Assembly: GCA_004297165.1 (NCBI GenBank)
Contig: SCUJ01000006.1
Span: 1,116,464-1,180,463, forward strand
DNA length: 64,000 bases
Source of the DNA: Gammaproteobacteria bacterium
Lineage (GTDB): Bacteria > Pseudomonadota > Gammaproteobacteria > Eutrophobiales > Eutrophobiaceae
Reading direction: 5' to 3'
The notes below the pieces were generated by a model. The model saw only the letters and a program-made list of their open reading frames with translations. It did no database searches and was not told the origin of the DNA. This document shows, one piece after another, positions 1,897-44,940 of this stretch (positions are counted from its first letter, which is position 1; every line of letters begins with the position of its first letter). The position numbers and the translations under genes are program-made.

Positions 1897-2379
1897 TCAC
1901 CCGGATAGTTGGGTCGCGAGCGGCAACTCGGTCGTATCCTTGATCTCCGTGACAGCGATGGTGGAGTGAATCTCCCGGATCATCGGCATGGCGATGAGAT
2001 AATTGCGCACGAAGGATTCGTAATGCTGGATGTCGCGCGTGACCACCTTCAGCAGATAATCGGTCTGACCGGTGACGGTGTAACACTCGACCACCTCGGG
2101 AAACTTCCTGATGCGGTTTTCGAACTCCTCCAGGCTGCCTTTCCCGTGGAGGACCAGGCTGACGTTAACGAAGACCACCACCTCCATCCCCAGTTTGGCA
2201 TGATCCAGGATCGCCACACGGGCTTTGATCACGCCCTCTTTCTCCAGGCGCTTGATCCGCCGCCAGCAGGGCGACTGGGACAGGCCGACACGGCGGGAGA
2301 TCTCCTCTATAGAGAGGTCGGTGTTCTCCTGGAGCAGCTCCAGGATCTTTCGCTCATAGTTGTCGATTCTTACCGGCAT
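1897..2379 (-). CDS. Lrp/AsnC-family transcriptional regulator (BkdR-like)
   Basis: An N-terminal helix-turn-helix (ILELLQENTDLSIEEISRRVGLSQSPCWRRIKRLEKEGVI) is followed by an Lrp/RAM ligand domain (VVECYTVTGQTDYLLKVVTRD). About 160 residues from ATG 2379, the usual family length; an in-frame ATG at 2415 would add 12 residues. Divergent from the 2-oxoacid dehydrogenase operon starting at 2537, the same arrangement as bkdR with the bkd operon of Pseudomonas, where an Lrp-type protein activates in response to branched-chain amino acids. That it controls this operon is an inference from position. Confidence 0.88.
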   Translation of the reverse strand: MPVRIDNYERKILELLQENTDLSIEEISRRVGLSQSPCWRRIKRLEKEGVIKARVAILDHAKLGMEVVVFVNVSLVLHGKGSLEEFENRIRKFPEVVECYTVTGQTDYLLKVVTRDIQHYESFVRNYLIAMPMIREIHSTIAVTEIKDTTELPLATQLSG

Positions 2380-2497
2380 ATCAATTCTGTATTCCAGTCT
2401 TTCCGGGTATTTCATTTCAATATATAGCAGATTTTCGCCAGATTTAGACAGGTTATTCCCTGGTTTCCTGAATATATTTATCCATCAGAACGCTAAT

Positions 2498-2536: not shown

Positions 2537-3772
2537 ATGAATCCTTTGACGGGAAAACTGCACATACCGGATGCGCCGTTCCGGCCCGGCCAGCATGCCG
2601 ACTACAGCAAGGTCACGCTGCCCGCCGCCGGCGAGCTTGAGCGTCCGGATGTGCTGGTGGAAGAGCGTCTGATCCGCCATATGCCCTACAGCATGATCCG
2701 CGTGCTGGATACCGAACATCGCGCCGTGGGTCCCTGGAACCCCAATCTGGATGTCGAAACCCTGCGCCAGGGCCTACGATTCATGTTGCTCACCCGCGCA
2801 TACGACGATCGCATGATGCGGGCCCAGCGCCAGGGGAAACTGACCTTCTATGTGAAATCCACCGGAGAGGAAGGCTTTACCGTCGCCCAATGCCTGGCGT
2901 TGCGACCCGGCGACATGTTGTTCACCACCTATCGTCAACCGGCGGCCGCCATCGCGCGCGGCGCGCCTCTGGTGGACATGATGTGCCAATGCCTGTCGAA
3001 TTCCAGGGACAATCTCAGGGGCCGGCAGGTCCCCACCCTCTACAGTTTCAAGGAGGTGAATTTTTTCTCCATCTCCGGGAACGTGGGAACACAATTTCCC
3101 CAGGCGGTGGGTTGGGCGATGGCCTCCAATTACAAGGGCGAGGATCACATCGCCTCGGCCTGGGTGGGCGAGGGCGCCAGCGCGGAAGGGGACTTTCACT
3201 ACGCCATGACATTCGCCTCTGTGTACGAGGCGCCCGTCATTCTCAACATCGTGAACAACCAGTGGGCGATCTCCACCTTCCAGGATTTTGCGGGGGGTGA
3301 ACACTGTCCCTTTGCCGCCCGCGCCCTGGGTTACGGGATGCCAGGGCTACGCGTGGACGGCAACGATTTCCTGGCGGTCTATGCAGCGACGCAATGGGCC
3401 GCGGGGCGCGCCCGGGCCGGCAAGGGTGCGACCCTCATCGAGCTGTATACTTACCGGGCCGAGAGCCACTCCAGCAGCGATGACGCCACCCGTTACCGTC
3501 CGGTGGATGACTGGCAGAACTGGCCGCTGGGAGATCCCATCCTCCGTCTGAAACAGCATCTAATCGACCTCGGCGAATGGACCGAGGAGCGGCACCTGGC
3601 ACTTGAAGCGGAACTCAAGCAGGCGGTCATGGACGCCTGGCAGGAGGCCGTCAGTTACGGCACTCTCGAAGAGGGTCCGCGCCCGCCGGTCGCGGCCATG
3701 TTCGAACATGTCTACAAGGAGCTGCCGCCCCACCTCATAAAACAGCGGCGGCAGTTGGGAGTCGAGCCTTGA
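2537..3772 (+). CDS. bkdA1: 2-oxoisovalerate dehydrogenase E1 alpha subunit
   Basis: E1alpha of the branched-chain 2-oxoacid dehydrogenase complex: thiamine-diphosphate-dependent decarboxylation of the 2-oxo acids from Leu, Val and Ile. The ThDP/Mg motif is GEGASAEGDFHYAMTFASVY...NNQWAIS, followed by the phosphorylation-loop-like YRAESHSSSDDATRYR. The N-terminal extension (LHIPDAPFRPGQ...YSMIRVLD) matches the bacterial BkdA1 type, and 411 residues is the normal length. GGAGG at 2532-2536 touches ATG 2537, so the in-frame TTG at 2546, spaced nine bases from it, may be the real start. First gene of a tightly coupled operon. Confidence 0.93.
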   Translation: MNPLTGKLHIPDAPFRPGQHADYSKVTLPAAGELERPDVLVEERLIRHMPYSMIRVLDTEHRAVGPWNPNLDVETLRQGLRFMLLTRAYDDRMMRAQRQGKLTFYVKSTGEEGFTVAQCLALRPGDMLFTTYRQPAAAIARGAPLVDMMCQCLSNSRDNLRGRQVPTLYSFKEVNFFSISGNVGTQFPQAVGWAMASNYKGEDHIASAWVGEGASAEGDFHYAMTFASVYEAPVILNIVNNQWAISTFQDFAGGEHCPFAARALGYGMPGLRVDGNDFLAVYAATQWAAGRARAGKGATLIELYTYRAESHSSSDDATRYRPVDDWQNWPLGDPILRLKQHLIDLGEWTEERHLALEAELKQAVMDAWQEAVSYGTLEEGPRPPVAAMFEHVYKELPPHLIKQRRQLGVEP

Positions 3773-4785
3773 CCCGCATGACCATGGCGCAGGCCCTTAA
3801 TTCGGCCATGGATGTCATGCTCGCGCGCGACCCGAACGTCCTGATCTTCGGCGAGGACGTGGGCTACTTCGGGGGCGTGTTCCGCGTCACCGAGGGGCTT
3901 CAGAAAAAATACGGCCGGAACCGCGTCTTCGATACCCCGATCGCCGAGGGGGGCATCGTGGCCGCGGCGATCGGCATGGGCGTCAACGGCCTGCGCCCGG
4001 TTGTGGAGATCCAGTTCTGCGACTACATCCACCCGGCCTTCGATCAACTGGTCAGCGAGCTCTCGCGCCTGCGCTACCGCAGCGGCGGGCAATTCTGGTC
4101 TCCGGTGACGGTTCGTACACCCTGCGGCGGCGGGATTCATGGCGGACAGACCCACTCGCAGAGCCCGGAGGCGGTTTACGCGCATGTCTGCGGCCTGAAA
4201 ACCGTGATGCCCTCCAATCCCTATGACGCCAAGGGCATGTTGATCAGCGCCATCGAGGACGATGACCCGGTGATCTTTCTGGAGCCCAAGCGCCTGTATA
4301 ACGGTCCGTTCGCGGGCGATCCCGAGCAGCAATCCGGGCGCTGGGACGCCCATCCCAAGGGCGAAGTACCGGACGGTTATTACACGGTCCCGCTGGGTCA
4401 GGCGGAGGTCGTTGTGCCGGGCGATGAACTGACCATCGTCGGCTATGGCACACTGGTTCATGTCGCCGTCGCCGCCGCCCGGGAAGCCGGCGTGTGCGCG
4501 GAGATCATCGATGTGCGGAGCATGATGCCGCTCGACATCGATACCCTGGCGGCCTCGGTCAAAAAAAACGGACGCTGCCTGATCGTTCACGAGGCCACGC
4601 GCACCTGCGGTTATGGCGCAGAGCTCTCGGCGCAGATCCAGGAGGCATGCTTCTGGAGCCTCAAGGCGCCGATTGAACGGGTCACCGGCTGGGATACGCC
4701 CTACCCGCATGCCCAGGAATGGGAATATTTTCCCGGCAAGAAGAGAGTGCTGGAGGCCATCCGGCGCATTATGGAGATCGCGTGA
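3769..4785 (+). CDS. bkdA2: 2-oxoisovalerate dehydrogenase E1 beta subunit
   Basis: Transketolase-like E1beta partner of the preceding gene. Recognisable blocks are FGEDVGYFGGVFRVTEGL, DTPIAEGGIVAAAIGMG, EIQFCDYIHPAFDQL, CGGGIHGGQTHSQSPEA and the C-terminal VIDVRSMMPLDIDTL-type domain. At 338 residues it is full length. TTG 3769 overlaps the E1alpha stop (TTGA), indicating translational coupling, with GGGAG at 3757-3761; ATG 3778 is the alternative. E1alpha and E1beta form the heterotetramer that hands the acyl group to the E2 lipoyl domain. Confidence 0.93.
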   Translation: MTRMTMAQALNSAMDVMLARDPNVLIFGEDVGYFGGVFRVTEGLQKKYGRNRVFDTPIAEGGIVAAAIGMGVNGLRPVVEIQFCDYIHPAFDQLVSELSRLRYRSGGQFWSPVTVRTPCGGGIHGGQTHSQSPEAVYAHVCGLKTVMPSNPYDAKGMLISAIEDDDPVIFLEPKRLYNGPFAGDPEQQSGRWDAHPKGEVPDGYYTVPLGQAEVVVPGDELTIVGYGTLVHVAVAAAREAGVCAEIIDVRSMMPLDIDTLAASVKKNGRCLIVHEATRTCGYGAELSAQIQEACFWSLKAPIERVTGWDTPYPHAQEWEYFPGKKRVLEAIRRIMEIA

Positions 4786-5915
4786 GCCGCCACGAATTCA
4801 GGTTGCCCGATCTCGGCGAAGGGACCGTCGATGCCGAGATCGTCGCCTGGCATGTCGAGCCGGGGGATCGAGTCGAGATGGATCAACCGGTCGTGGACCT
4901 CATGACCAACAAGGCCATGCTCGAGATCACCGCCCCGGTCGCCGGCCGGGTCGTGGAGCGTCATGGAAATCCCGGCGATGTCCTGCCGGTGGGGACAACG
5001 CTGCTGGTCTTCGAGGATGGCAGCGACAGCCCCCGGCGCGAGGCGGTAATTGCCGCCGGGGATCGCATACTCGCCTCGCCCGCCGTTCGACGGATGGCGC
5101 GGGAACTGGGCATTGATCTTGAACGAGTACATGGCAGCGGACCCGACGGGCGGATCCTCAAGGAGGATTTGCAGCCTTCTCACAAAGAACATGCAGTCGA
5201 GGTCGGAAAGAATGACCAGGAATCAAAAGTATTCGAGACGTCTTTGATCGGTCTGCGCCGCCGGATCGCGGAACAGGTGCTGCAAGGGCACAACATCCCG
5301 ACGTTCGCTTATGTGGAAGAGATCGATGTCACGCAACTCGAAGCCCTGCGGCGGCAGCTCAACAATACCCGGCAGGTGGGTCAGCCTGAACTCACCTATC
5401 TACCCCTGATCATCCTGGCCCTGGTGAAGACACTACGTCTTCACCCGATGTTCAATGCACACTACGATGCGGCGGCCATGCTCATCCGCCAGTACGGGGA
5501 CATCCATGTCGGCATCGCCACGCACACCGGCGCGGGACTCAAGGTCCCCGTGCTCAGAAACGCACAGACCCTCGATCTCTGGGCCTGTGCCAGGGAACTG
5601 CGGCGGCTCGCCGCGGCTGCCCGGGACAATACCGCGCGCCCCGAGGAACTGACCGGCTCCACCATCAGCATCACCAGCCTCGGCAAACTCGGAGGCCTGG
5701 CCGTGATCCCGATCATCAACAGTCCGGAGGTCGCCATCCTCGGGATCAACCAGGCCGAGGAGCGCCCGGTGGTCCGCGACAATGCCATCGTCATCCGGCG
5801 GATGATGAACATCTCCTCCTGTTTCGACCATCGCGTCTCTGACGGTCAGGACGCGGCGGAGATGATCCAGTGCCTGAAGGGCCTGCTGGAAAACCCGGCG
5901 GCAATCTTTATATAA
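4782..5915 (+). CDS. bkdB: dihydrolipoyl acyltransferase E2 (branched-chain type)
   Basis: E2 core of the complex. GTG 4782 overlaps the E1beta stop (GTGA) and gives 377 residues: a lipoyl domain with the modified lysine at about K44 ([12 protein letters not shown]), a short linker, a peripheral-subunit-binding domain at about 97-131 ([15 protein letters not shown]...GRILKEDL), and the catalytic acyltransferase domain ending in [14 protein letters not shown] (catalytic His about 350 of HxxxDG). A longer reading frame reaches back into E1beta but has no basis. There is only one lipoyl domain. No E3 (lipoamide dehydrogenase) gene lies in the operon, so E3 must come from elsewhere. Confidence 0.92.
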
Positions 5916-5916
5916 A

Positions 5917-7080
5917 ATGTACCTGCCATTGCCAATCGACCTGGGCGAGACTGCAACGGCGTTGCGCGAGACCGTGGCCCGCTTCGCCGCCGCAGAGATC
6001 GCACCTAATGCCGCGGCGATCGATCGCGATAACCGTTTTCCTGCCGGGCTCTGGCGCAAGCTGGGCGAACTCGGTCTGCTGGGCATCACCGTCGAAGAGA
6101 CATGGGGCGGCAGCGGCATGGGTTATCTGGAGCATGTCATCGCGATGGAGGAACTCAGCCGCGCCTCGGCCTCGGTGGGACTCTCCTACGCCGCCCATTC
6201 CAATCTCTGCGTCAATCAGATCCGCCTGAACGGCACTGACGCGCAACGGCGCAAATATCTGCCACCCTTGATCTGCGGTGAGAAAATCGGCGCACTGGCG
6301 ATGAGCGAGAGCGGGGCCGGCTCGGACGTGCTCGGCATGCAGCTCCGCGCCGAGCGCAAGGGCGACTGTTTCAACCTGAACGGCAACAAGATGTGGATCA
6401 CCAACGGGCCGGACGCGGACACGCTGGTTGTCTATGCGAAGACCGATCCGGAGCTCAGGGCCCGCGGGATCAGCGCCTTCATCGTGGAAAAGGATTCCCC
6501 CGGATTCGCCGCGGGCAACCGGCTCGACAAACTGGGCATGCGGGGCTCGAACACCAGCGAACTCGTCTTCACCGATTGCGAAGTGCCCGCGGAAAACCTG
6601 CTCGGCGGCTTGAATGAGGGCGTGAACGTGCTCATGAGCGGCCTCGACTACGAACGCCTGGTGCTCAGCGGCGGACCGCTCGGCATCATGCAGTCCTGCA
6701 TGGATCTCGCGCTGCCCTATATCCATGAACGCCGACAGTTCGGCCAGCCGATCGGCGGCTTCGAATTGATGCAGGGCAAGCTTGCGGACATGTATACCGC
6801 CCACAACGCCTCCCGGGCCTATGTTTATGCCGCGGCCAGGGCCTGCGATCAGGGCCGCATCACCCGCAAGGACGCCGCCGGAGTCCTCCTCCACGCGGCG
6901 GAAAGGGCCACCTGGATGGCCTCCCAGGCGATCCAGATCCTCGGCGGCAACGGCTACACCAACGACTATCCGGCGGGGCGTTTCCTGCGGGACGCGAAAC
7001 TCTACGAGATCGGCGCCGGCACGAGCGAGATCCGGAGGATGCTGATCGGACGGGAACTGTTTCGGGAATCGGAGGCTTGA
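5917..7080 (+). CDS. acyl-CoA dehydrogenase, isovaleryl-CoA dehydrogenase type
   Basis: FAD flavoprotein of 387 residues. The catalytic glutamate is at about 246 in [16 protein letters not shown]; this early position and the surrounding sequence are those of isovaleryl-CoA dehydrogenase (IVD/LiuA), whereas most acyl-CoA dehydrogenases carry the base near 370. Other blocks: [32 protein letters not shown], and the C-terminal [18 protein letters not shown]. The gene begins one base after the E2 stop. It fits the second step of leucine oxidation, isovaleryl-CoA to 3-methylcrotonyl-CoA. Electrons would go to ETF, which is not encoded here. Confidence 0.9.
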
Positions 7081-7083
7081 CGA

Positions 7084-8514
7084 ATGATCACCTTCAGTGA
7101 GCGGCAACTGCGCATCCCGACCATCATGCGGCCGGTGTATCTGGTCACCGGCGGGATGTCCAAGTTCGCCCGGGCCTTTCCCGATCGCAAGACGGAAGAG
7201 CTGTGCGTTGATGCGCTGACCGAGGCCGCGGAGTTTATCTACATGACGCCGGCCGAACTCAAGCGTTACATCCATTCCTGCTATTACGGTCATTTCGCGG
7301 ATCACTTCGGCGATCAACTCCTCGGCGAGGCCGTGATCCACGATCGCCTCGGTCTCGATCCGCTGGGCAACATCGGCATCAAGACCGGCGGGGCCACCGG
7401 CGGCTCCACCCTCTGGGAGGCGTACAAGACCGTCGCTTCGGGGTATTCGGATTGTGTGCTCGCCCTGGGCTGGGAGCGCATGGACGAGGTGCCGACCGAT
7501 GAGGGCAATCACTACATCGCCTGCGCGGCCGACAAGGATTGGGAGACGCCGCTCGGCCACATCTATACAGGGTACTACGCAGTAATGGCCCAGAAATACT
7601 GGCAGGTCTTTGGCCGGGAGGAGGATGCGTTCCGGCGCACCATGGCTGCGATCGCGGTAAAGAATAGGGGCTACGCCGTGCACAATCCCCACGCCCAGGG
7701 CCCCCTGCGGATTACCGTGGAGGACGTGTTGAACTCGCCCGTGGTCGCCTATCCCTTGCGCGCCCTGGACTGCTGCCTGATGTCGGTCGGCGCGGCCGCC
7801 GCCATCCTCGCCGATGAAAAGACCGCCTTCGAGATGACCGACAATCCGCTACGCATCGATGTCTGCGCGGCGAGTCACACCCTGCGCCCTGCCGATCGGC
7901 GCAACATGGAGATACCGCTCCTGCCCAACGAGACGCCGGGTCAGTACCGGGATCTCGCCGATCGTTTTCCCGGCGCGGAACGGTACCCCGGCTTTACCTC
8001 GTTCCTCGCGGCCAGGATGGCGGCCTATTACGCCTACGGACTCACCGGCGTAACCGACCCCTGCACGGATCTGGATCTGGTGGAACTGCACGACGCCTTC
8101 ACCATCAGCGACATCCAGTCCTATGAGGACCTCGGCCTCCGGCCTTACGGCGAGGGGCGCAATTATGTGGAGTCGGGGGATTGTTATCACACCAATCCCC
8201 ACACAGGACAACCCGGCCGCCTCCCCGCCAATCTCTCCGGAGGCCTAATCGGCTGCATGCACGCGGTCGGGGCCACCGGCATCATGCAGGTCATCGAGGT
8301 CGGCCACCATCTCTGGAACCGCTGGGCCGAGATGCACGGTGACCCAGGCAAGTGGACGCGCTTCGGCCGGAGCAAACCGGAGGACTGGCGGGACCTGCAG
8401 GTCGTCGGCGCGAGGCGCGGGATGGCCGTCAGTCATGCCGGGGTCGGCTCGCATGTCACCTGCGCCATCGTGCAGCATCCGGATCATTTATTACGGGGAG
8501 GGGCCTTTCAATGA
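7084..8514 (+). CDS. thiolase-superfamily protein (SCP-x/lipid-transfer type) lacking the nucleophilic cysteine
   Basis: Thiolase fold of 476 residues. The N-terminal half has TGGATGGSTLWEAYKTVASGYSDCVLALGWERM where true thiolases have (A/E)ACASGG..., so glycine replaces the acyl-accepting cysteine. The C-terminal half keeps ELHDAFTISDIQSYEDLGL and CMHAVGATGIMQ, matching the NEAF-like and GHPxGATG histidine motifs. Together with the DUF35 gene that overlaps it (ATGA), this is the arrangement of aldolase-type Ltp/DUF35 pairs from steroid degradation and of archaeal thiolase/DUF35 complexes. C-C bond cleavage or formation on an acyl-CoA is likely; classical thiolysis is unlikely. The physiological substrate is unknown. 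Confidence 0.8.
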   Translation: MITFSERQLRIPTIMRPVYLVTGGMSKFARAFPDRKTEELCVDALTEAAEFIYMTPAELKRYIHSCYYGHFADHFGDQLLGEAVIHDRLGLDPLGNIGIKTGGATGGSTLWEAYKTVASGYSDCVLALGWERMDEVPTDEGNHYIACAADKDWETPLGHIYTGYYAVMAQKYWQVFGREEDAFRRTMAAIAVKNRGYAVHNPHAQGPLRITVEDVLNSPVVAYPLRALDCCLMSVGAAAAILADEKTAFEMTDNPLRIDVCAASHTLRPADRRNMEIPLLPNETPGQYRDLADRFPGAERYPGFTSFLAARMAAYYAYGLTGVTDPCTDLDLVELHDAFTISDIQSYEDLGLRPYGEGRNYVESGDCYHTNPHTGQPGRLPANLSGGLIGCMHAVGATGIMQVIEVGHHLWNRWAEMHGDPGKWTRFGRSKPEDWRDLQVVGARRGMAVSHAGVGSHVTCAIVQHPDHLLRGGAFQ

Positions 8515-9119
8515 CCACCCACACAACCAGGGGCACGGTGCGCGTCGCCGGTCATGCCTATAAACCAGACGGCCGTTTTCATTTTCCCGCCGCCCAGACG
8601 CCCATCCGCGACGAGCGCGGCGAACTTGCCGGGATCACAAATCCGCGCGAGATCATTCATATCCATTCCTATGGCGGGGAGGCGGTATTTTTCGAATCCC
8701 TCGGTCGGGGCAGACTGCCCGGCAGCCGTTGCGATAACCCCCTGTGCGTGGCCCATGCCTCCGTCTTCCTGCCGTTTCGCATCCATTGCCCGGATTGTCT
8801 CGCGAGATGCGCCGTGGTTGACCTGACCTCCATCGCACAGGAAACCGCCCGGATCCACACCTTCATGATCACGGAACGGACCGGGGCATTCAACACCCTG
8901 CCCACGCCGATCCGATTCATCAACGTGGAGTTCGAGGGAGTCTGTACGATCCTGATGAGCACGCTATGTGTCGGCGAACCCGCGATCGGCATGCGGGTCA
9001 TGCCCGTGTTCAACACGGAGGCCCCGACTTATACGATCCTGGACCTGTCCTGGGTCCCCCTGGGCACGCCCGCAGGCGAATTGCCCCGTTATTTTCACTT
9101 CGGAGGAACAACCCCGTGA
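8511..9119 (+). CDS. DUF35 OB-fold/zinc-ribbon protein, partner of the thiolase-like protein
   Basis: ATG 8511 overlaps the thiolase-like stop (ATGA) and is preceded by GGGGAGG about seven bases upstream, so the longer upstream reading frame is not used. The 202-residue product has a rubredoxin-like zinc ribbon (Cys at CDNPLC, then CPDC) followed by an acyl-CoA-binding OB fold (VVDLTSIAQETARIHTFMI...PIRFINVEFEG). DUF35 proteins form complexes with thiolase-fold enzymes and channel or position the CoA ester. Overlapping translation suggests a stoichiometric complex with the previous gene product. Confidence 0.85.
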   Translation: MTTHTTRGTVRVAGHAYKPDGRFHFPAAQTPIRDERGELAGITNPREIIHIHSYGGEAVFFESLGRGRLPGSRCDNPLCVAHASVFLPFRIHCPDCLARCAVVDLTSIAQETARIHTFMITERTGAFNTLPTPIRFINVEFEGVCTILMSTLCVGEPAIGMRVMPVFNTEAPTYTILDLSWVPLGTPAGELPRYFHFGGTTP

Positions 9120-10195
9120 AAGCGATACGACAACACACAGCAACTCCATCAGTGCGGACGGACAAGATGAACGCCTATCGTGAACTCAAAGTGGACGGCT
9201 ACGAGCGGGTGCTCGAAATCGAGAATCCGGCTGCCGGGCTGCGGGCCTGGATCGCCTTGCACAACACCCGGCTCGGGCCCGCGCTGGGCGGCTGCCGCAT
9301 GTGGAACTATGCGTCCCGCGAGGCGGCGATTGAGGATGTGCTGCGGCTGTCCAAGGCCATGACCTACAAGAATGCGCTGGCCGGACTCGATTTCGGCGGC
9401 GGCAAGGCGACCATCTGGGGCGATTCGCGACAAAAGACCGAACCGCTCCTCGAGACGATGGGCGAGGCCGTCGAGTATCTGCACGGAACTTACGTCACGG
9501 CGGAAGACGTCGGCATGAGCTTCGAAGATATGAAGGTCTTCCGGCGCAAGACCCGCCACATCCCCTCCATCAATGCCGGCGATCCCGCGCCCGCGACAGC
9601 CAGGGGCATCTTCAACGGCATTCAAGCCGTATGCCGGCAGCTCGGCATCCGCGATCTCTCCGGATTGTCGGTCGCCGTGCAGGGCACGGGCAGCGTGGGT
9701 TATGTGCTGATCGGTCTGCTGATGAAGTCCGGTTGCCGGGTGACCGCCAGCGATCTGAACCAGGACCGCCTGAAAAAGGCCGTCAAGGATTACGGTGTGA
9801 CGACGGTGGGCGTGGACGAGATTTATGACACGGCCTGCGATATCTTCTCCCCATGCGCCCTCGGCGGCATCATCAACGCGGCGACCATCGAGCGGCTATC
9901 CAGGGCCGGGATCAAGGCGGTCGCCGGCTCCGCCAACAATCAGCTTGCCGAGGACGGACTGGCCGATGTCCTGCGCGAGCGCGGGATCCTCTATGCCCCG
10001 GACTTTGCCATCAACGCGGGCGGGGTTATCCTGCTCGCCGGAGAGACCCCCGCGGGTTTCGACCGGGAGTTGGTGGATAAGCGCCTGGAAGGGATCGGCC
10101 CGACGCTGATGAGGATCTTCGAGGCCTCGGAAAAGGAGCATAAAAGCACGGTGCGCATCGCGAACGAGATGGCGGAGGCGAGATTCAAGAGATGA
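9116..10195 (+). CDS. Glu/Leu/Phe/Val dehydrogenase, leucine dehydrogenase type
   Basis: NAD-dependent oxidative deamination of a branched-chain (or related) amino acid to the 2-oxo acid. Substrate-site blocks: LGPALGGCRMWNY, LSKAMTYKNALAGLDFGGGKATIWGD (the two catalytic lysines), TAEDVGMSFEDM, and the Rossmann motif VAVQGTGSVGYVLIG. GTG 9116 overlaps the DUF35 stop (GTGA) with GGAGG at 9102-9106; this gives 359 residues, normal for LeuDH. ATG 9167 is a possible later start. It supplies the 2-oxo acid for the dehydrogenase complex encoded upstream. Sequence alone does not separate Leu, Val and Phe specificity. Confidence 0.87.
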   Translation: MKAIRQHTATPSVRTDKMNAYRELKVDGYERVLEIENPAAGLRAWIALHNTRLGPALGGCRMWNYASREAAIEDVLRLSKAMTYKNALAGLDFGGGKATIWGDSRQKTEPLLETMGEAVEYLHGTYVTAEDVGMSFEDMKVFRRKTRHIPSINAGDPAPATARGIFNGIQAVCRQLGIRDLSGLSVAVQGTGSVGYVLIGLLMKSGCRVTASDLNQDRLKKAVKDYGVTTVGVDEIYDTACDIFSPCALGGIINAATIERLSRAGIKAVAGSANNQLAEDGLADVLRERGILYAPDFAINAGGVILLAGETPAGFDRELVDKRLEGIGPTLMRIFEASEKEHKSTVRIANEMAEARFKR

Positions 10196-11118
10196 ACTAC
10201 GAATACATGCGGCAACCGACGTATACCGGGCACCGGACCTTTCTGAAATTACCGACAAGCTGCGTCGGAGCGCCGGATGTGACCATCGTCGGCGTCCCCT
10301 TCGATCTGGGCACGACCAACCGGCCCGGCGCGCGCTTCGGACCCAGCGGCCTGCGGGATGTCAGCACCCTGCTGTCGCAGCGTACGAACGCTCATTTCCG
10401 CCTGAATCCCGCGGACGCGCTCACGATGATAGATGCCGGGGATTTCGAGGTCGCGAACAGTCAACTGGATCAGACCCTCGGTCTCATCGAGGAACAGGCC
10501 GGAAAGATCCCCGGCCATCTGGTGGCCCTCGGCGGGGATCACACCATCACCCTCCCCCTGCTGCGGGCGCTCATGCGAAGGACAGGTCAATGTCTCAGTC
10601 TCGTGCATTTCGATGCCCATGTGGACACCTGGAAGGACAACTTCGGCACGCCCGTGGGGCACGGCACGCCGTTTCATCTCGCCGCGCAGGAGCGGCTCAT
10701 CGATCCCCGCAAGAGCGTGCAGATCGGGATCCGCTCGCCCTGCGCCAACGAGATCATGGATTACACGCGGAACGAACTCGGCTTCACCATCATCACCGCG
10801 CGCGAGATCCATCGCATTGGAGACCTGGACGGGGTGATCCGGCGGATCCACGCCGTGGTCGGCGACAACCCGGCCTACCTGACCTTCGACATCGATTGCA
10901 TCGACCCTGCGCAGGCGCCGGGGACGGGCACGCCGGAGATCGGCGGGTTGTTCACCTGGCAGGCCCAGTACCTCCTCGACCATCTCGCCGATCTGGACTG
11001 GCGGGGCATGGATCTCGTCGAGGTGGCCCCCGCCTATGACCACGCGCAGATCACCGCGCTCGCCGGCGCGGCCTTCGTGTGGTCCTATCTCTGCGGATTA
11101 GCTTCCCGGAAAAGTTAA
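10192..11118 (+). CDS. ureohydrolase family protein (agmatinase/guanidino-acid hydrolase-like)
   Basis: Mn-dependent arginase/agmatinase fold, 308 residues. The metal ligands are complete: GGDHTITLP, VHFDAHVDTWKD, and FDIDCIDPAQAPGTGTPE. Hydrolysis of a guanidino group to urea plus an amine is the family reaction; agmatine, 4-guanidinobutyrate or another guanidino compound is possible. ATG 10192 overlaps the LeuDH stop (ATGA), so it is a genuine member of this catabolic operon, an unexpected partner for leucine oxidation. The gene ends overlapping the convergent MDR gene by four bases. Confidence 0.87.
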   Translation: MNYEYMRQPTYTGHRTFLKLPTSCVGAPDVTIVGVPFDLGTTNRPGARFGPSGLRDVSTLLSQRTNAHFRLNPADALTMIDAGDFEVANSQLDQTLGLIEEQAGKIPGHLVALGGDHTITLPLLRALMRRTGQCLSLVHFDAHVDTWKDNFGTPVGHGTPFHLAAQERLIDPRKSVQIGIRSPCANEIMDYTRNELGFTIITAREIHRIGDLDGVIRRIHAVVGDNPAYLTFDIDCIDPAQAPGTGTPEIGGLFTWQAQYLLDHLADLDWRGMDLVEVAPAYDHAQITALAGAAFVWSYLCGLASRKS

Positions 11119-14864: not shown

Positions 14865-15782
14865 TTATAACCGCTTACTAGCAGCATTAAGCTCAACCCC
14901 GGTCAAATGCTCCAGCCAGCGGACCATCTCGCTGATGCTGGCGTCCTTCGTCGTGGCGGACTGAGCCTCCCGCCAGAGCCTTTGACCCGTCTCGGAAAGC
15001 TGAATGGGCAGGCCTTGCTCACCCGCGATCCGCATGGCGATGCCGATGTCCTTGACCATGAGATCGAGTTTGAAGGCGTCATCGAAGGCGCGATTGAAGA
15101 TGCGTTGCTTGAAATGGGTGCGGCTGACCCAGGACATGCCGGTGGATTCGTTGATGACATCGATCATTGTCTCGGGGTCGAGGCCGGCCCGTTTGCCGAT
15201 CAGGAGCCCTTCGGCGCTCGCCATGAAGTTCATGGCGGTGATGAGGTTGTTGATGCACTTCATGGTGTGGCCGCTGCCGACCGGTCCGAGATGATATATC
15301 TGCCTGCCCATGACCTCGAGCAGCGGACGCACCCGGTCTAGCGCCCCCGGCGTGCCCCCGGCCATGAACACCAGTTCGGCCCGCTCCGCGCCGGGACGCG
15401 CCCCCGATACCGGCGCATCAACCATGTCGATCCCGCGTTCGGCGAGCGCCGCGGCGGTCGCGGCGGTGATCCAGGGTTCCGCCGATGACGTGTCCAGCAC
15501 CAGGCCGCCGGGACGCAAGCCATGAACCAGACCCTGATCGCCCAGGACCACCTCGCGTACATACGTCCCGGAAGGCAGCATGGTGATGACGATCTCGGAA
15601 ACTGCCGCCACCTCGCGGGGGTTCGCGCCGATCCGGGCTTCGGGAAAATCATTGCGTATTGATTGCACCTGAGCGGGGTTGATGTCAAAGACAGTAAGCG
15701 GATATCCCGCCCGCGCGAGATGTCCCGCCATTGGCGCGCCCATGACCCCAAGACCGATGAAACCGACTGGCGTTTTATTCAT
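14865..15782 (-). CDS. NAD-binding 3-hydroxyisobutyrate / tartronate-semialdehyde reductase-type dehydrogenase
   Basis: Beta-hydroxyacid dehydrogenase of 305 residues. The N-terminal Rossmann motif is GLGVMGAPMA (11-19), the substrate motif DAPVSGARPGAE (about 122-133), and the catalytic lysine about K175 in GSGHTMKCINNL. Family members oxidise 3-hydroxyisobutyrate (valine breakdown) or reduce tartronate semialdehyde (glyoxylate route). Hydroxypyruvate-isomerase-like proteins occur at 995 and 29654, but these are exported, so a joint glyoxylate pathway is not supported. Specificity is undecided. It ends in the intergenic region before hcp. Confidence 0.87.
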   Translation of the reverse strand: MNKTPVGFIGLGVMGAPMAGHLARAGYPLTVFDINPAQVQSIRNDFPEARIGANPREVAAVSEIVITMLPSGTYVREVVLGDQGLVHGLRPGGLVLDTSSAEPWITAATAAALAERGIDMVDAPVSGARPGAERAELVFMAGGTPGALDRVRPLLEVMGRQIYHLGPVGSGHTMKCINNLITAMNFMASAEGLLIGKRAGLDPETMIDVINESTGMSWVSRTHFKQRIFNRAFDDAFKLDLMVKDIGIAMRIAGEQGLPIQLSETGQRLWREAQSATTKDASISEMVRWLEHLTGVELNAASKRL

Positions 15783-36592: not shown

Positions 36593-37393
36593 ATGACTGA
36601 TCAATTTTCAATCCGCCAACGACGATTAGGCAGTTTAATCCTCGCAACATCGGGCACGATCCGCGTGGAAGATGCGATGAAAGCACTCGATCTTGATCGG
36701 GCTCATGCAGCAAAGCTGCTGGCCGGCTGGCATAAGCAAGGTGTCATCCGACGCATTGCCCGTGGCCTGTATGTCCCCATCTCCCCCGGTGCGTTGAAAA
36801 AAACCCAGGTGCTGCAGGATCCCTGGATCCTTGTCCCGGAGCTATACGCCCCCGGCTATATCGGCGGTTGGAGCGCATTGGAGCATTGGGGGCTGACAGA
36901 ACAACTATTCCGATCGATCTGCGTCCTGACCAACAAGCGCACGGCCTATGGCGAGACAAAGCACCAGGGCATAACCTTCTTTATTAAGTACACACCGAAA
37001 AAAATGCTTTTCGGCACAAAGGTTGTTTGGCGCGAACAGATTAAGGTGCAGGTTTCAGATCCACACAAGACTATGCTGGATATCATTGACGATCCCCACA
37101 TCGGCGCCGGACTGCAACATGTGATAGATTGTCTCTCGGAATATAAAAAACAATACGGGAAAAATCTTGCTCAACTGCTGGACTATGCCGCGCGAATCAA
37201 TAACGGCGCGCTGTTCAAAAAGTTTGGCTACCTGGCGGAAAAGCTTGGATTCGATGAATCCTTCGTCACCGAATGCACCCGGCGCCTGACAACCGGCTAT
37301 GCGCACCTCGATAAAACAGCGCAGAATAACAACCTGGTAACAAAATGGCGGCTGTGGGTGCCAAGGACATTAAATCATGATCAGCAGGGATGA
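36593..37393 (+). CDS. AbiEi-type antitoxin (transcriptional regulator)
   Basis: 266 residues. Winged-helix N-terminal domain: SLILATSGTIRVEDAMKALDLDRAHAAKLLAGWHKQGVIRRIARGLYVPI. It is followed by the AbiEi C-terminal domain (WILVPELYAPGYIGGWSALEHWGLTEQLFRSICVLTNKR...). It is the antitoxin of a type IV toxin-antitoxin system, acting both as repressor and as neutraliser of toxin activity. The toxin start at 37377 overlaps its end by 17 bases, so the pair is translationally coupled. Confidence 0.85.
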   Translation: MTDQFSIRQRRLGSLILATSGTIRVEDAMKALDLDRAHAAKLLAGWHKQGVIRRIARGLYVPISPGALKKTQVLQDPWILVPELYAPGYIGGWSALEHWGLTEQLFRSICVLTNKRTAYGETKHQGITFFIKYTPKKMLFGTKVVWREQIKVQVSDPHKTMLDIIDDPHIGAGLQHVIDCLSEYKKQYGKNLAQLLDYAARINNGALFKKFGYLAEKLGFDESFVTECTRRLTTGYAHLDKTAQNNNLVTKWRLWVPRTLNHDQQG

Positions 37394-38840
37394 AATTCTA
37401 ACAGTCGCCGATGAGACCGGACTCACACCGAATGTTGTAGAAAAGGATTACGTACTGGGTTGGATGCTTGGTGCAATCGGCGCAAATTCGGTTTTATCGC
37501 CCACCTGGATTTTTAAAGGCGGCACCTGCCTCAAGAAATGTTACTTTGAAACTTACAGGTTTTCCGAAGACCTTGATTTTACACTGCGCGACGCAACCCA
37601 GCTTGAACGGGAATTCCTGACAACGCAATTCACGGCTATCGCCGAATGGCTGTATGAATCAGCGGGTATAGTAGTCCCGGCAGACAGGCTGGTATTCGAT
37701 ATCCACGACAACCCCAGAGGGCGCAAATCATGCGAGGGGCGCGTCTATTATCAAAGTTACTTTGCCGGCGGGAAACAGGACCTTCCCAAAATCAAACTCG
37801 ATGTGACCGCCGATGAAGCGGTCGTTATGCCGGTAACCCGCCAGACAGTATTTTATCCTTATGCTGATGCGCCAGCCCAAGGTATTCATATCCACTGCTA
37901 TTCCTATCCCGAAGTCTTTGCCGAAAAAGTGCGGGCACTGGGCGAACGCGGCCGACCCAGAGACCTGTACGATGTCATTAATCTGTTTCGAAATGATCAA
38001 TTACCCGATGCCGCTGTGGTACAGGATATCCTGTCTCAAAAATGCGCATACAAAGGCATCAGGATTCCGGTATTAGAGGATATGGAATCTTACAAAGACG
38101 CATTGCAGGGAAACTGGCAACCGATGCTTGCACATCAACTACCATCTCTCCCGGCATTTGAAGTCTATTGGGGCGTATTGCCGGAGTTTTTCAACTGGCT
38201 TGAAGGCCGGGCAGTGGAGGAAAAGGTTGCGCTCGCCGAGGTTACCGGCAGCGGACAAGTCTACCGCCCGGCGTATGGCCGGCTCGGCCTGCGCACTTTA
38301 AGTGGTAATTCCCTGGAGATCATTCGTTTTGCGGCAGGCAACAGGCTGTGCGTTAATCTGGACTACACAGACAACGAGGGGCATAGAAGCACCCGCGTGA
38401 TTGAACCCTACTCCCTGCGGCGCGCCCAAAACGGCAATATACTGCTATACGCTGTCCGCGCTGAGGATGGGCAGATCAGGGCTTACAAAACAGACCAAAT
38501 CAATGACGCTTCCATTACTAACAGAACGTTTATTCCGCGATACCGGATAGAACTCGGACCTGCAAGGGGTGATATTCGATCCGTCGCCCAGACTAGTGGA
38601 TGGTTACCAGGCAGTCTTGGAATATTGCAAAGTACATCCCGGCGAACTAGGGTAAGTCGTCCAATTTCAAGAAGTCGCACATCAGGTTTCGGCAGTGAAG
38701 CAACCTATATTTATCGTTGTCCCATATGCGATAAAACATTCAGACGTAAAACTCAAAATTCGACTCTTAACCCCCATAAAACCAAAGACGGCTGGCCTTG
38801 TTCTGGTAGTGCCGGCTATTTGGAAGATATTACCTACTAG
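37377..38840 (+). CDS. AbiEii nucleotidyltransferase toxin fused to WYL-like and zinc-finger-like regions
   Basis: 487 residues, against about 300 for plain AbiEii. The nucleotidyltransferase core is FKGGTCLKKCYFETYRFSEDLDFTL (GGT at 48-50, SEDLDF at 63-68), with a later FAEKVRALGERGRPRDLYDV. Residues about 313-385 (RLCVNLDYTDNEGHRSTRVIEPYSLRR...LLYAVR) resemble a WYL sensor domain. The C-terminus has Cys448-x2-Cys451, His467 and Cys475, consistent with a zinc site. AbiEii toxins transfer nucleotides to targets, blocking growth after infection. The added ligand-sensing and zinc parts are unusual. Confidence 0.82.
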   Translation: MISRDEILTVADETGLTPNVVEKDYVLGWMLGAIGANSVLSPTWIFKGGTCLKKCYFETYRFSEDLDFTLRDATQLEREFLTTQFTAIAEWLYESAGIVVPADRLVFDIHDNPRGRKSCEGRVYYQSYFAGGKQDLPKIKLDVTADEAVVMPVTRQTVFYPYADAPAQGIHIHCYSYPEVFAEKVRALGERGRPRDLYDVINLFRNDQLPDAAVVQDILSQKCAYKGIRIPVLEDMESYKDALQGNWQPMLAHQLPSLPAFEVYWGVLPEFFNWLEGRAVEEKVALAEVTGSGQVYRPAYGRLGLRTLSGNSLEIIRFAAGNRLCVNLDYTDNEGHRSTRVIEPYSLRRAQNGNILLYAVRAEDGQIRAYKTDQINDASITNRTFIPRYRIELGPARGDIRSVAQTSGWLPGSLGILQSTSRRTRVSRPISRSRTSGFGSEATYIYRCPICDKTFRRKTQNSTLNPHKTKDGWPCSGSAGYLEDITY

Positions 38841-38869
38841 TGGTTACATGCCAATTAAAAATTACCGGT

Positions 38870-39100
38870 TGATTTGCTCGATAATTCAGTACGCCATCAG
38901 CAGCCTTGTGGACGATTGTGCTGATATCCGCGCTGTCCCGCACCGACCAGAAGTTTTTGTCCCACGTCCGGCTCAGTTGGTGGAACTGCATAACGGGGTT
39001 TACCGGGTTCAATTGTAGATCGAAGACGGTGTTCTTGACTGTCTTCTAAACATCGCCGATCAGTCGCGCCAGGCAGTCGGTGAAGGTGTCGGCAATATGG
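38870..39100 (-). pseudogene. decayed copy of the RelE-like helicase N-terminal domain
   Basis: Minus-strand translation reads DTFTDCLARLIGDV-stop-KTVKNTVFDLQLNP...KNFWSVRDSADISTIVHKAADGVL. Against the intact gene this matches DTFTDSLARLAGDEQKAAKTTAFDLQLNP...KNFWSVRVSSDLRIIVHKAGDSL. An in-frame TAG and loss of the downstream helicase show it is a non-functional remnant of about 75 codons. Confidence 0.75.
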
Positions 39101-39161
39101 CGACCGATCAGCAAGCGCAACACCGGGAACAGATCGGACTGCAAAAGCGCAGTAGTCGCTA

Positions 39162-39311
39162 TCATCGGCTCATCGAGCCGGGCGATGTCTCCTGGAGGAA
39201 CTCAGAAGCAAGGGTGGTCTTGCCGCATTGGCGGGGACCGACGAGGGCCACCACCTTGCGGCGCGACAGGGCGATTTCTATGGCTTTTATCAAGTTGTGG
39301 CGTTTGATCAA
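39162..39311 (-). pseudogene. truncated AAA-type ATPase (DUF4143-family) N-terminus
   Basis: From TTG 39311 the minus strand reads LIKRHNLIKAIEIALSRRK followed by VVALVGPRQCGKTTLASEFLQ, the Walker A start of the common ATPases that usually carry a DUF4143 domain. The frame ends after about 50 residues (ETSPGSMSR-stop), and the remaining 350 or so residues are gone. A remnant in the island. Confidence 0.65.
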
Positions 39312-39325
39312 GCCAGCATGACACC

Positions 39326-39574
39326 ATGTATATCCGGCACAAGTTGGCGGATTTTCATGATAGCGATCCGCGACTCCTGATGCTGGCAATCAAGAATGTC
39401 ATCGAAACGACCCATGGCATGGCCGAATTGGCGAACACCACCGGCCTGAACCGCGAGAGTCTGTACAAGACGCTTTCCGGAGAGCGAACGCCGCGGATCG
39501 ATACTCTAAGCAGGATACTGCACACCTATGGCCTGAGGCTGTCGGTAAGCGTGGACGAGAAATCAGTCGCTTGA
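39326..39574 (+). CDS. HigA-like (COG3636 type) addiction-module antitoxin, orphan
   Basis: 82 residues: DPRLLMLAIKNVIETTHGMAELANTTGLNRESLYKTLSGERTPRIDTLSRILHTYGLRLSVSV is the helix-turn-helix core of the HigA/COG3636 antitoxins that normally follow a RelE/HigB toxin. No toxin gene is intact next to it. The N-terminal 12 residues differ from the usual start, so the gene may be truncated. An antitoxin without a toxin could be a leftover or an anti-addiction gene. Confidence 0.65.
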   Translation: MYIRHKLADFHDSDPRLLMLAIKNVIETTHGMAELANTTGLNRESLYKTLSGERTPRIDTLSRILHTYGLRLSVSVDEKSVA

Positions 39575-39652
39575 AGGTGTGGCCTTGGCAGGCTTCTGTC
39601 CATCGCCAGGGTGCCGGGTGAGGCTGTCGGTGAAGGTGTGGCAAAATTCATT
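39575..39652 (-). pseudogene. short fragment of the RelE-like helicase N-terminal domain
   Basis: Minus-strand reading HTFTDSLTRHPGDGQKPAKA matches residues 8-25 of the intact helicase (DTFTDSLARLAGDEQKAAKT) and stops there. It lies between the HigA-like gene and the Mrr-like gene and overlaps the latter's stop. A third copy of this domain in 3.3 kb. Confidence 0.6.
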
Positions 39653-40409
39653 CTGTATTGAATATTCTTTCGACATCTTCCTCGATACCCAGCTCATTGA
39701 TGTAGGTACTTAAAGTAATTCCATCCATGGTCCAGATGCCCATTGCCTTTGAGTATTCTCGTGCCCCCTCATTAAAATCTGAAGTAGTCCAAAAAGCATA
39801 GATGACAGGTGAAAGTACTCCGAAATCAGATCGTTCGTGGTGATCATTCACCTTTCGCATCGCACCTCCAACAAACTTTCTAAGCTCGCTTTCACTTATT
39901 ATGTTATTAGCTCCATATCTTTTCGCTTGACCGACGATTGTTACCTTGGAAACTATCGGCACGGGTAAACTTTTTCTCACATAGTTCATATTGAATCCCC
40001 AGAAATCTACTCCACCATCGTGAGTTGCCTGTGTTTTTTTAGATGTCGCTCCAAGTGCCCGGAGTATCATCGCACAGACTTCCTCGAAATCTGTTGGGCT
40101 AATTTTATACAGCTTATCAAGCAGTGATTTGTGAAATATATTTTTTCCCCTTATATAGGGGGATGGTTCATCATCTATCTCATAAACAGGAACACTACCC
40201 CTTTCTACAGCAGTCGCAGCTCCATTACGAAGGTGTTCTGCAATATACTTGATATTAGTTTCCAGAGTGTCTTCCAATTCACTTCGTGAACTTTTGTGCA
40301 ATCGCTTTTCTAATGATGCAAGGGACACTTCACGCAGAGACCGCCACGAATTATCCACCAAATCTTGAATAACCCACTCAGAGATAATTTGAGAAGGTGG
40401 GAATGTCAT
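39648..40409 (-). CDS. Mrr-like restriction endonuclease domain protein
   Basis: 253 residues. The catalytic core is PTDFEEVCAMILRALGATSKKTQATHDGGVDFWGF...VGQAKRYGANNI: the Asp of DGGVDF with Q-x-K (QAKRY), as in the Mrr_cat PD-(D/E)XK family that cleaves modified DNA. The N-terminal half is probably helical and target-binding. Upstream on the same strand, seven bases away, is the ParB-like gene, suggesting a two-gene unit. Base composition is more AT-rich than the neighbouring housekeeping genes, consistent with transfer. Confidence 0.78.
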   Translation of the reverse strand: MTFPPSQIISEWVIQDLVDNSWRSLREVSLASLEKRLHKSSRSELEDTLETNIKYIAEHLRNGAATAVERGSVPVYEIDDEPSPYIRGKNIFHKSLLDKLYKISPTDFEEVCAMILRALGATSKKTQATHDGGVDFWGFNMNYVRKSLPVPIVSKVTIVGQAKRYGANNIISESELRKFVGGAMRKVNDHHERSDFGVLSPVIYAFWTTSDFNEGAREYSKAMGIWTMDGITLSTYINELGIEEDVERIFNTE

Positions 40410-40415
40410 AGGTGA

Positions 40416-41519
40416 TTATTTAGCCGTAAGCTTTTCTCGGTCCTGTAATGCCAAGTTGATTCTGTCTCTAAGTTCTATAAGAGCACTTAGCGAATCTTGA
40501 TCAAGTTGCCGTAACATATCCGGTGTCAATGAACTAACTGCAGTTGTAGCTGCCGTTATCGTTGGAAACCAGTCTGCAGGATGATCCAGTTGATACCTTG
40601 CCAATGCACGTGCCAGAGACCCTTCTTTTGACCTAAATACTGCAAGCGCTGTCTCATCCTCAATGAAGGCCCCCAAGTCGCGAACTGCAATCGCACGTGG
40701 AATCTTAGGCTCTTCTTGATCTTCACTTGGCGTAATCCAAGAGTAGAATTCTTCGAGGTTGATAGTATTCTGAAATATGCCTGCGTTATCATCCCAGCCC
40801 AGCCAGCTTCTAACATTTGGTCTTTTGAAAACTTCCTCGAAGTAGCTAAACATTTTCGGATCTGCATAATCCCCGAACTCTTCATTGGTCTTCATCGCCT
40901 CAAGAGCTAGGTAACACCGATATGAAGCATTTGCTGCTCTTGTTGACAACCCGAGACTTTGCGCAACTTCCTGAGAACTCATTCCGGTTTGGCGGAGTAC
41001 ATGTACTGCCTTTGCTTTTTGATAAGGCCCCCATTCCTTAATTCCGGAAACATGTCTTAGTCCTGGTAATATGATTTGTGCAGACTCTGGTGCAACTTCG
41101 TCGTCCAATAGCAGGCATTCGAACTTTCCCATCGCATTAACCTGATCTTCTGATAAAGTTTTTTTTCCTTCATCGTGAAGCTCTAAAAGCCAACGAATTG
41201 CTGCGAGACGGCGGTTTCCTTCAATCACTACATATTTGGGTTGTTCTGAGTCAGATGAATTTTTCCACTTGCGTACAACCAAGCGGTCCATCTGGAGAAA
41301 TCCTATAGTTGCGATAGTGTCGCGTAGCTCTTGCACATCGAAAATTTGTGACCGCATTTTTTGAGCAGCGACTTCCTGAACCTTGGATTCTGCAAAACGG
41401 GCCTCAGGGATGGGGCGTATTTCTTCACCTAATTCGGCAAAACGTGGATTATTCGGATCCAGAAGCAAATCTTCTTGATTTAGTACGACCGGTGACAAAT
41501 ATTTATATAAATCGCTCAT
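40416..41519 (-). CDS. ParB/Srx-fold nuclease-domain-like protein
   Basis: 367 residues. The N-terminal half contains the ParB/sulfiredoxin signature (VQELRDTIATIGFLQMDRLVVRK...YVVIEGNRRLAAIRWLLELHDE), followed by a helix-turn-helix-like stretch (TGMSSQEVAQSLGLSTRAAN). Proteins with this domain occur in plasmid partition and, increasingly, in defence islands. ATG 41519; the next gene down is the Mrr-like nuclease. Function is unknown, and these two may act together. Confidence 0.7.
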   Translation of the reverse strand: MSDLYKYLSPVVLNQEDLLLDPNNPRFAELGEEIRPIPEARFAESKVQEVAAQKMRSQIFDVQELRDTIATIGFLQMDRLVVRKWKNSSDSEQPKYVVIEGNRRLAAIRWLLELHDEGKKTLSEDQVNAMGKFECLLLDDEVAPESAQIILPGLRHVSGIKEWGPYQKAKAVHVLRQTGMSSQEVAQSLGLSTRAANASYRCYLALEAMKTNEEFGDYADPKMFSYFEEVFKRPNVRSWLGWDDNAGIFQNTINLEEFYSWITPSEDQEEPKIPRAIAVRDLGAFIEDETALAVFRSKEGSLARALARYQLDHPADWFPTITAATTAVSSLTPDMLRQLDQDSLSALIELRDRINLALQDREKLTAK

Positions 41520-41573
41520 TATAATTTCTCCAACTTAACTGGACATTAGCATAAGTGTTGTTAATCGCTACAA

Positions 41574-44546: not shown

Positions 44547-44940
44547 ATATCCCTACTCTCGATTGTCTGCCGCAGGCGCTGCGTGTGTTCGAAGTCCGGA
44601 TTTTTTGTGCTGTCCTGGTTTCGACAGGCCTGATTGAAGACCATCGATATGCTCGAAGAGATCTGCGTTAATCTGTTGCCAGAGAGGGTCCAGAATGAAA
44701 TCTATACCTTCACGCCTCGCCAATTTTGCAGCGGAATCGCTATTGTTCATGGCGTCATCCAGTCGCCGAAAGGAAAAAGAAGAGCGCCCAAAAGTAGAAA
44801 GCCCCAGGGGGTCGGCACACCCTCAGAATAGTCGAGGGGGCGTACTGCCAAGGGGCGGATGTGGAGTCGAGTATGGTTAACGGACTTACGTAAGTCAACC
44901 ACACGGTTTTCCATCTCCAGTACATTATGTTTTGCCATCT
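44547..44940. other. 394-bp stretch between mod and the Bro-N gene
   Basis: No convincing gene. Two short minus-strand frames occur: 44553-44750 (65 codons, MNNSDSAAKLARREGIDFILDPL...) and 44747-44944 (65 codons, MKMAKHNVLEMENRVVDLRKSVNH...). The second reads into a GGSxAGCCC-rich stretch near 44800-44870 that looks like repeat DNA. They could be a broken small operon gene, since the type III genes are otherwise packed. Confidence 0.35.

Follow-up and report, generated by a model that had tools for sequence, protein, structure and literature searches.

A leucine catabolic operon of a gammaproteobacterium in which a thiolase-like protein and its DUF35 partner may stand in for the carboxylase branch

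The stretch of DNA studied here (the window: 64,000 nucleotides of contig SCUJ01000006.1, from the Gammaproteobacteria bacterium assembly GCA_004297165.1) contains, at positions 2537-11118 of the + strand, one packed operon of eight genes. Two of them encode a thiolase-superfamily protein that lacks the two catalytic cysteines (THI) and a DUF35 protein, and they are embedded among genes for the upper steps of leucine breakdown. On the evidence given below, the chances are about even that the operon serves leucine catabolism by a lower branch free of carboxylation, in which the THI-DUF35 pair would cleave 3-hydroxyisovaleryl-CoA to acetone and acetyl-CoA, both substrate and products being predicted.

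The eight genes, from the first to the last, are all present in the order of the initial annotation. Three of them code for a branched-chain 2-oxoacid dehydrogenase (BCKDH), whose branched-chain type was checked for E1α alone, E1β and E2 being assigned from domain matches: (i) E1α (2537..3772), with an OxoDH_E1alpha_N domain and scores of 510 and 505 bits against two E1α chains of 2-oxoisovalerate dehydrogenases, the other chains reaching at most 234 bits; (ii) E1β (3769..4785, TTG start assumed), with Transket_pyr and Transketolase_C domains; and (iii) E2 (4782..5915, GTG start assumed), with lipoyl, E3-binding and acyltransferase domains. The operon has no E3 gene. The next gene encodes isovaleryl-CoA dehydrogenase (IVD; 5917..7080), which scores 613 bits to isovaleryl-CoA dehydrogenase versus 302 bits to the next type, short-chain acyl-CoA dehydrogenase. 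It is followed by THI (7084..8514), a proposed subunit of an acyl-CoA retro-aldol lyase, and by its DUF35 partner (8511..9119). The last two genes encode a leucine dehydrogenase (LeuDH; 9167..10195, in a frame open from 8966, with the ATG of the conserved part at 9167) and a ureohydrolase assigned by family match to the agmatinase/guanidinobutyrase family (10192..11118). With a query started 12 codons ahead of its likely start, LeuDH reaches 296-261 bits to leucine dehydrogenases, compared with 233 to tryptophan dehydrogenase and 183 to phenylalanine dehydrogenase; its top match, at 304 bits, is named Glu/Leu/Phe/Val dehydrogenase.

The overlapping or near-overlapping starts that had been described for these genes are borne out at six of the seven junctions. 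According to the coordinates, there are overlaps of 4 nt at E1α/E1β, E1β/E2, THI/DUF35 and LeuDH/ureohydrolase, and gaps of 1 nt at E2/IVD, 3 nt at IVD/THI and, with the LeuDH start at 9167, 47 nt at DUF35/LeuDH. Divergent from the operon lies the gene of an Lrp/AsnC-type regulator (1897..2415, - strand; AsnC_trans_reg and HTH_24 domains), which occupies the same position in a sister species (contig L012, 13.1 kb). Since this contig retains the order E1α-E1β-E2-IVD-THI-DUF35 and gives no match to LeuDH or the ureohydrolase, the shared core is BCKDH-IVD-THI-DUF35; after DUF35 there comes, in the opposite orientation, a permease-like frame (read by eye).

The classical lower branch consists of methylcrotonyl-CoA carboxylase (MCC), methylglutaconyl-CoA hydratase and 3-hydroxy-3-methylglutaryl-CoA (HMG-CoA) lyase. 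A complete liu operon elsewhere in the genome (3.53 Mb in 13 contigs, 98.95% complete) was searched for, as the finding that would overturn the proposal, and the search was negative: IVD is present, and neither the β subunit of MCC (MCCβ) nor HMG-CoA lyase was found. The protein nearest to D. aestuarii MCCβ shares 36% identity with it and is of the propionyl-CoA carboxylase (PCC) type. The best score to the HMG-CoA lyase model is 64.5 bits, versus a cut-off of 246, in a frame of 524 aa, and the HMG-CoA-lyase-like matches of the genome sit in frames of 498-558 aa, versus the ~300 aa expected. Its carboxyl-transferase matches are of the PCC type, of the GcdA type and, in two partial cases, of the AccA/AccD type (types partly by eye). 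Two of these were rejected as leucine enzymes: (i) the one at L001, of the PCC type and adjoining a methylmalonyl-CoA mutase-like frame (frame by eye); and (ii) the one at L002, which by eye is of the GcdA type with a GcdB-like neighbour, and which has no NCBIfam match at 1e-60.

The absence of MCC alongside IVD is exceptional among gammaproteobacteria. Among 274 gammaproteobacterial genomes searched at E <= 1e-145, IVD was found in 62 and MCCβ in 78, and 60 of the 62 genomes with IVD have both; the two without MCCβ are the genome under study and G494 (67% complete). Beyond this class, a GTDB scan returned 159 stretches encoding a THI relative, the best 80 of which form the set of loci used here, and 51 carrier genomes were searched, i.e., the genome under study plus those of 50 of the 80 loci. 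An IVD of at least 69% identity occurs in seven of these carriers (G000, which is the genome under study, G351, probably a 76% complete genome of the same genus, G352, G385, G386, G387 and G389), and MCCβ was not found in six of the seven. Fisher's test on the absence of MCCβ (6/7 versus 1/61) gives p = 4e-7, or 4e-4 with related carriers merged, values that ignore the tree and compare groups belonging to different classes. Hence, of the two parts of the initial annotation's proposal, the replacement of the carboxylase branch is strengthened, and the exact reaction stays a prediction.

Regarding the protein itself, THI matches the model NF004982 (PRK06365) over its full length with 671 bits, under the curated cut-off of 695, the next model being at 244 bits. 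In the HMMER alignment to 6esq, the region of the nucleophilic cysteine, AACASG, becomes GGATGG in THI, and HDCF becomes HDAF. The position of the nucleophile is thus Gly103 and that of the HDCF cysteine Ala338, in 38 of 38 relatives (an alignment of 38 sequences picked for diversity from the 80 loci plus the window), so that THI, which lacks both cysteines of a Claisen thiolase, cannot follow the usual thiolase mechanism. The protein had been called cysteine-less, which is not literally so: 11 cysteines remain, Cys231 alone among them being invariant in the 38 relatives, and the absent ones are the two catalytic cysteines. His336, His451 and His457 are also invariant, and His393 is conserved in 37 of 38. 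Cys391, placed by eye as the counterpart of the acid Tyr344 of the aldolase Ltp2, was rejected, since 6 of the 38 sequences have Asn or Thr there.

An AlphaFold2 model of THI has the thiolase fold (predicted local distance difference test 71.7, predicted template-modelling score 0.82) and is weak at residues 338-345 and at other active-site loops. The closest folds are 7yvy, 6et9 and 6esq (Z 34.6-35.4 over 352-365 residues). Further down the list, which holds several thiolases with DUF35 partners, stand Ltp2 at Z 29.8 and Sal at Z 28.6. Ltp2-ChsH2 and Sal-Shy are steroid aldolases that combine a thiolase fold and a DUF35 partner (ChsH2 and Shy, respectively) with retro-aldol chemistry, and their catalytic Tyr lies in a YDHF/YDCY motif, as described in PMC12329534.

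The DUF35 protein, searched alone at 0.001, gave no Pfam or NCBIfam match. The profile of 36 relatives does match the DUF35 structure 3irb (E = 6.9e-7), cysteines 74, 79, 93 and 96 are invariant in 36 of 36, and the structural model resembles the DUF35 chains 3irb, 6esq chain E and 6ok1 chain D. In 77 of the 80 loci the DUF35 gene starts no more than 530 nt after THI (no more than 161 nt in 76); as for the exceptions, the contigs of L077 and L087 end at THI, and L065 has no DUF35 match at 1e-10 in its remaining 719 nt. A thiolase fold, known from the model, is thus found together with an adjacent DUF35 gene across the loci, and the DUF35 protein is the predicted subunit partner of THI. The same genome has a second thiolase/DUF35 pair (G000:C13 1464000-1479000; L099:6191-7743), with normal Pfam DUF35 (ChsH2) domains and only remotely related to THI.

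THI-DUF35 is a conserved pair of an uncharacterised family across bacteria and archaea. The THI relatives of the best 80 of the 159 stretches share 74-91% identity, and the carriers belong, by title, to Thermoplasmata, Lokiarchaeia, Marinimicrobia, Deltaproteobacteria, Spirochaetes, Krumholzibacteria and others; to judge from these groups, many of them may be anaerobes. With the genome under study counted in both figures, THI occurs in 1 of 299 genomes of its phylum and in 2 of 53 of its order, and there is no match in six of the 61 other gammaproteobacteria with IVD, the six that were among the genomes listed. Such conservation over two domains, together with such rarity in its own phylum, suggests transfer into this genus. 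THI lies near IVD in separate lineages, namely this genus and the Desulfopila-type loci, the latter with an IVD 69-71% identical. Near the pair of L050 there is an acyl-CoA dehydrogenase that, among solved structures, is closest to IVD (386 versus 322 bits). In 18 of the 80 loci (e.g., L073, L091, L050, L061 and L064) a regulator of one family, with HTH_3 and Cupin_2 domains in the one tested, is encoded at most ~0.6 kb upstream of THI.

The proposed route would run as follows. By close homology, LeuDH and BCKDH are expected to produce isovaleryl-CoA, and IVD to convert it to 3-methylcrotonyl-CoA. A hydratase encoded elsewhere would then yield 3-hydroxyisovaleryl-CoA; L050 has an enoyl-CoA hydratase gene directly after the pair, and L057 has one two genes further on. 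THI, with its DUF35 subunit, would carry out the retro-aldol cleavage of this tertiary β-hydroxyacyl-CoA to acetone and acetyl-CoA, probably through the invariant His336, His451 and His457 in place of the Tyr of Ltp2/Sal. The pair would in this manner replace MCC, methylglutaconyl-CoA hydratase and HMG-CoA lyase and save a biotin- and ATP-dependent step, and the acetone might leave the cell or enter an unspecified route. It could be carboxylated first where acetone carboxylase is present. The γ subunit of this enzyme was found in 6 of the 51 carriers (5 of the 6 Lokiarchaeia searched, plus G382), all six with acetoacetyl-CoA synthetase (AACS), and acetone carboxylase was in consequence discarded as a general partner.

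Several observations weigh against the acetone route. Within the operon and the genome, no hydratase gene is found in the former and no acetone carboxylase γ in the latter. THI has an invariant HDAF and so fails the YD(H/C)(F/Y) motif, with Tyr, of Ltp2/Sal. Among the 51 carriers, 39 have an IVD-like match of at most 46% identity or none at 1e-85, and another five one of 48-53%; as only seven have a close IVD, this enzyme does not link the pair to leucine in every carrier. Ten carriers have an MCCβ of at least 54% identity, which in one case is divided between two contigs, and no other match at 1e-40 exceeds 36%; nine of the ten have it (54-65%) without any HMG-CoA lyase over the cut-off. HMG-CoA lyase exceeds its cut-off in four carriers (G385, G386, G352 and G400; G378 reaches 228 bits). 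Of the neighbourhoods of this gene that were read (L126, L127, L129, L130 and L131), only that of D. aestuarii (G385, L126) is a canonical liu operon, and this genome has the full operon plus the pair (genes by eye, apart from HMG-CoA lyase); in G386 and G352, both with a close IVD, the HMG-CoA-lyase-family protein lies outside any liu operon.

AACS points in the same direction. Its substrate, acetoacetate, is what is expected from HMG-CoA and not from 3-hydroxyisovaleryl-CoA. AACS was found over its cut-off in 37 of the 51 carriers, versus none of 14 control genomes, an unmatched background of that size only, in which two genomes had weaker matches; two of the AACS proteins were tested and scored 918 and 912 bits against an equivalog cut-off of 520.9. 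It lies at most 2.5 kb from THI in 9 of the 80 loci, in several phyla. L073 and L091, of the Desulfopila group, show the gene order XRE-cupin regulator, THI, DUF35, acyl-CoA ligase, AACS and IVD; L081 is without the ligase, and AACS and IVD are also adjacent in G352 and G387. One might speculate that an AACS next to IVD activates isovalerate instead, and a prior carboxylation of acetone could likewise account for AACS. In any case, because of this linkage to AACS, and because of the carriers that have MCC without HMG-CoA lyase, there is room for a cleavage that gives acetoacetate, or for another substrate. For this genome and its sister, where neither MCC nor AACS was found, acetone is the better-fitting product.

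Among the alternatives, it is doubtful, if far from implausible, that the pair has a different substrate, a β-hydroxyacyl-CoA or β-ketoacyl-CoA shared by the carriers, which it would handle together with AACS and a short-chain acyl-CoA dehydrogenase, and that a few lineages recruited it into a leucine operon for some related or side activity. This would account for the 39 carriers without an IVD-like protein above 46%, and it agrees with the thiolase and ligase genes found around the pair, with the acyl-CoA dehydrogenase beside it in L052, which is nearest to general acyl-CoA dehydrogenase (357 bits; IVD 226), and with the Marinimicrobia, where the neighbours of the pair do not recur in other groups. 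However, an identity of 74-91% over bacteria and archaea argues for a single conserved reaction, the clearest neighbourhoods (this genus and the Desulfopila group) consist of leucine or isovalerate genes, and the absence of MCC from genomes with THI and IVD would be otherwise unaccounted for.

It is rather improbable that the pair is a non-orthologous HMG-CoA lyase, cleaving HMG-CoA to acetyl-CoA and to acetoacetate that AACS would reactivate, with the carboxylation performed by MCC or another biotin enzyme, here perhaps a GcdA-type decarboxylase run in reverse. The frequency and proximity of AACS favour such a role, as do the nine carriers that have MCCβ but lack an HMG-CoA lyase above its cut-off, in which the pair could be its analogue, and the Thermoplasmata genome G355, where the pair adjoins AACS and MCC is also present. 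The genome under study does have a GcdA-type gene with a GcdB-like neighbour (neighbour by eye). Nevertheless, no MCCβ match (E <= 1e-40) above 36% was found in 41 of the 51 carriers, including six of the seven with a close IVD, and this genome and its sister yielded neither MCC nor AACS. Furthermore, glutaconyl-CoA is the likelier substrate of the GcdA-type enzyme, because its gene is accompanied by one for a glutaryl-CoA dehydrogenase-like protein (445 bits, cut-off 470) and by oxoacid:ferredoxin oxidoreductase genes (by eye). A part in HMG-CoA synthesis for the mevalonate pathway was set aside, as many carriers are bacterial and no HMG-CoA synthase gene stands beside the pair in the loci read by eye. 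Lastly, that THI is an ordinary thiolase, e.g., for the 2-methylacetoacetyl-CoA of isoleucine breakdown, is scarcely credible in spite of its thiolase fold and family, as none of the 38 relatives keeps either catalytic cysteine and the IVD of the operon is a leucine enzyme.

Returning to the cleavage of 3-hydroxyisovaleryl-CoA, a broader version may be put forward tentatively: NF004982-type THI-DUF35 pairs would be 3-hydroxyisovaleryl-CoA lyases, with a catalysis based on His and unlike that of Ltp2/Sal, serving a biotin- and CO2-independent route for leucine or isovalerate in bacteria and archaea, and acetone would be a widespread product of leucine. As MCC was not found in 41 and HMG-CoA lyase not over its cut-off in 47 of the 51 carriers, the lower leucine pathway in them, if any, is unaccounted for. 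If the proposal is true, a two-gene lyase would fill this gap in two domains of life, provide a gene for leucine-derived acetone and constitute a DUF35 aldolase for a small substrate. Should the pair turn out to be a counterpart of HMG-CoA lyase, or to do something different, a function would still be gained for a widespread unassigned family.

Other features of the window and the genome are the following. On the other strand, 3.7 kb past the operon, a 3-hydroxyisobutyrate dehydrogenase-type protein is encoded (14865-15782), perhaps for valine breakdown. A defence-like island (36593-48884) comprises an AbiEi/AbiEii pair (36593-38840, +), a type III methyltransferase (41811-44546, -), a 1033-aa frame (45783-48884) for which PADLOC gave nothing at 1e-10, and frames that hit the PADLOC candidate models PDC-S02, PDC-M38A and PDC-S13. 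It is followed at 49843-54242 (-) by a molybdopterin oxidoreductase and a 4Fe-4S partner protein, possibly a respiratory enzyme. Elsewhere in the genome (G000:C13 358000-377000; L096), the GcdA/GcdB-like genes, the glutaryl-CoA dehydrogenase-like gene and the 2-oxoacid:ferredoxin oxidoreductase-like genes (partly by eye) form a cluster that suggests anaerobic glutaryl-CoA metabolism.

With respect to known routes, Nemecek-Marshall et al. (in J Bacteriol, 1999) are said to have reported that Vibrionaceae turn leucine into acetone without passing through the HMG-CoA pathway, and to our knowledge no genes have been assigned to this conversion. Among the papers listed by searches of open-licence literature, none describes an MCC-independent leucine route with a THI-DUF35 pair, and none names a gene for a leucine-to-acetone route. 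For D. multivorans, the account in PMC5109826 assigns the anaerobic breakdown of isovalerate to MCC and HmgL, i.e., the classical form, complete in proteomics. For the acetone-degrading Desulfotomaculum arcticum, PMC8084838 describes a DUF35 protein detected with acetone and isopropanol only, and a next-numbered acetyl-CoA acetyltransferase abundant with acetone.

When compared with the classical liu pathway (IVD, MCC, hydratase and HMG-CoA lyase), the operon shares the BCKDH and IVD steps, whereas MCC and HMG-CoA lyase were not found here. The family that THI matches just under the cut-off, NF004982/PRK06365, is named "thiolase domain-containing protein", which gives no function. The furiosus thiolase 7yvy and 6esq are among the folds closest to THI, and no HMG-CoA synthase gene is present in this operon; 6esq has a DUF35 partner too, but it keeps the nucleophilic Cys and HDCF, which THI does not. 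With Ltp2 and Sal, THI shares 18-23% identity, and it has HDAF where these have YDHF/YDCY; on this motif it falls outside their clades, as the catalytic Tyr is absent, and it could still work like them. The DUF35 domain of Shy is fused to a MaoC domain (PMC12329534), whereas the DUF35 protein described here stands alone. Finally, Ltp2 and Sal serve steroids and THI-DUF35 sits in a leucine operon, where a thiolase-fold lyase with a DUF35 partner probably represents a new specificity.

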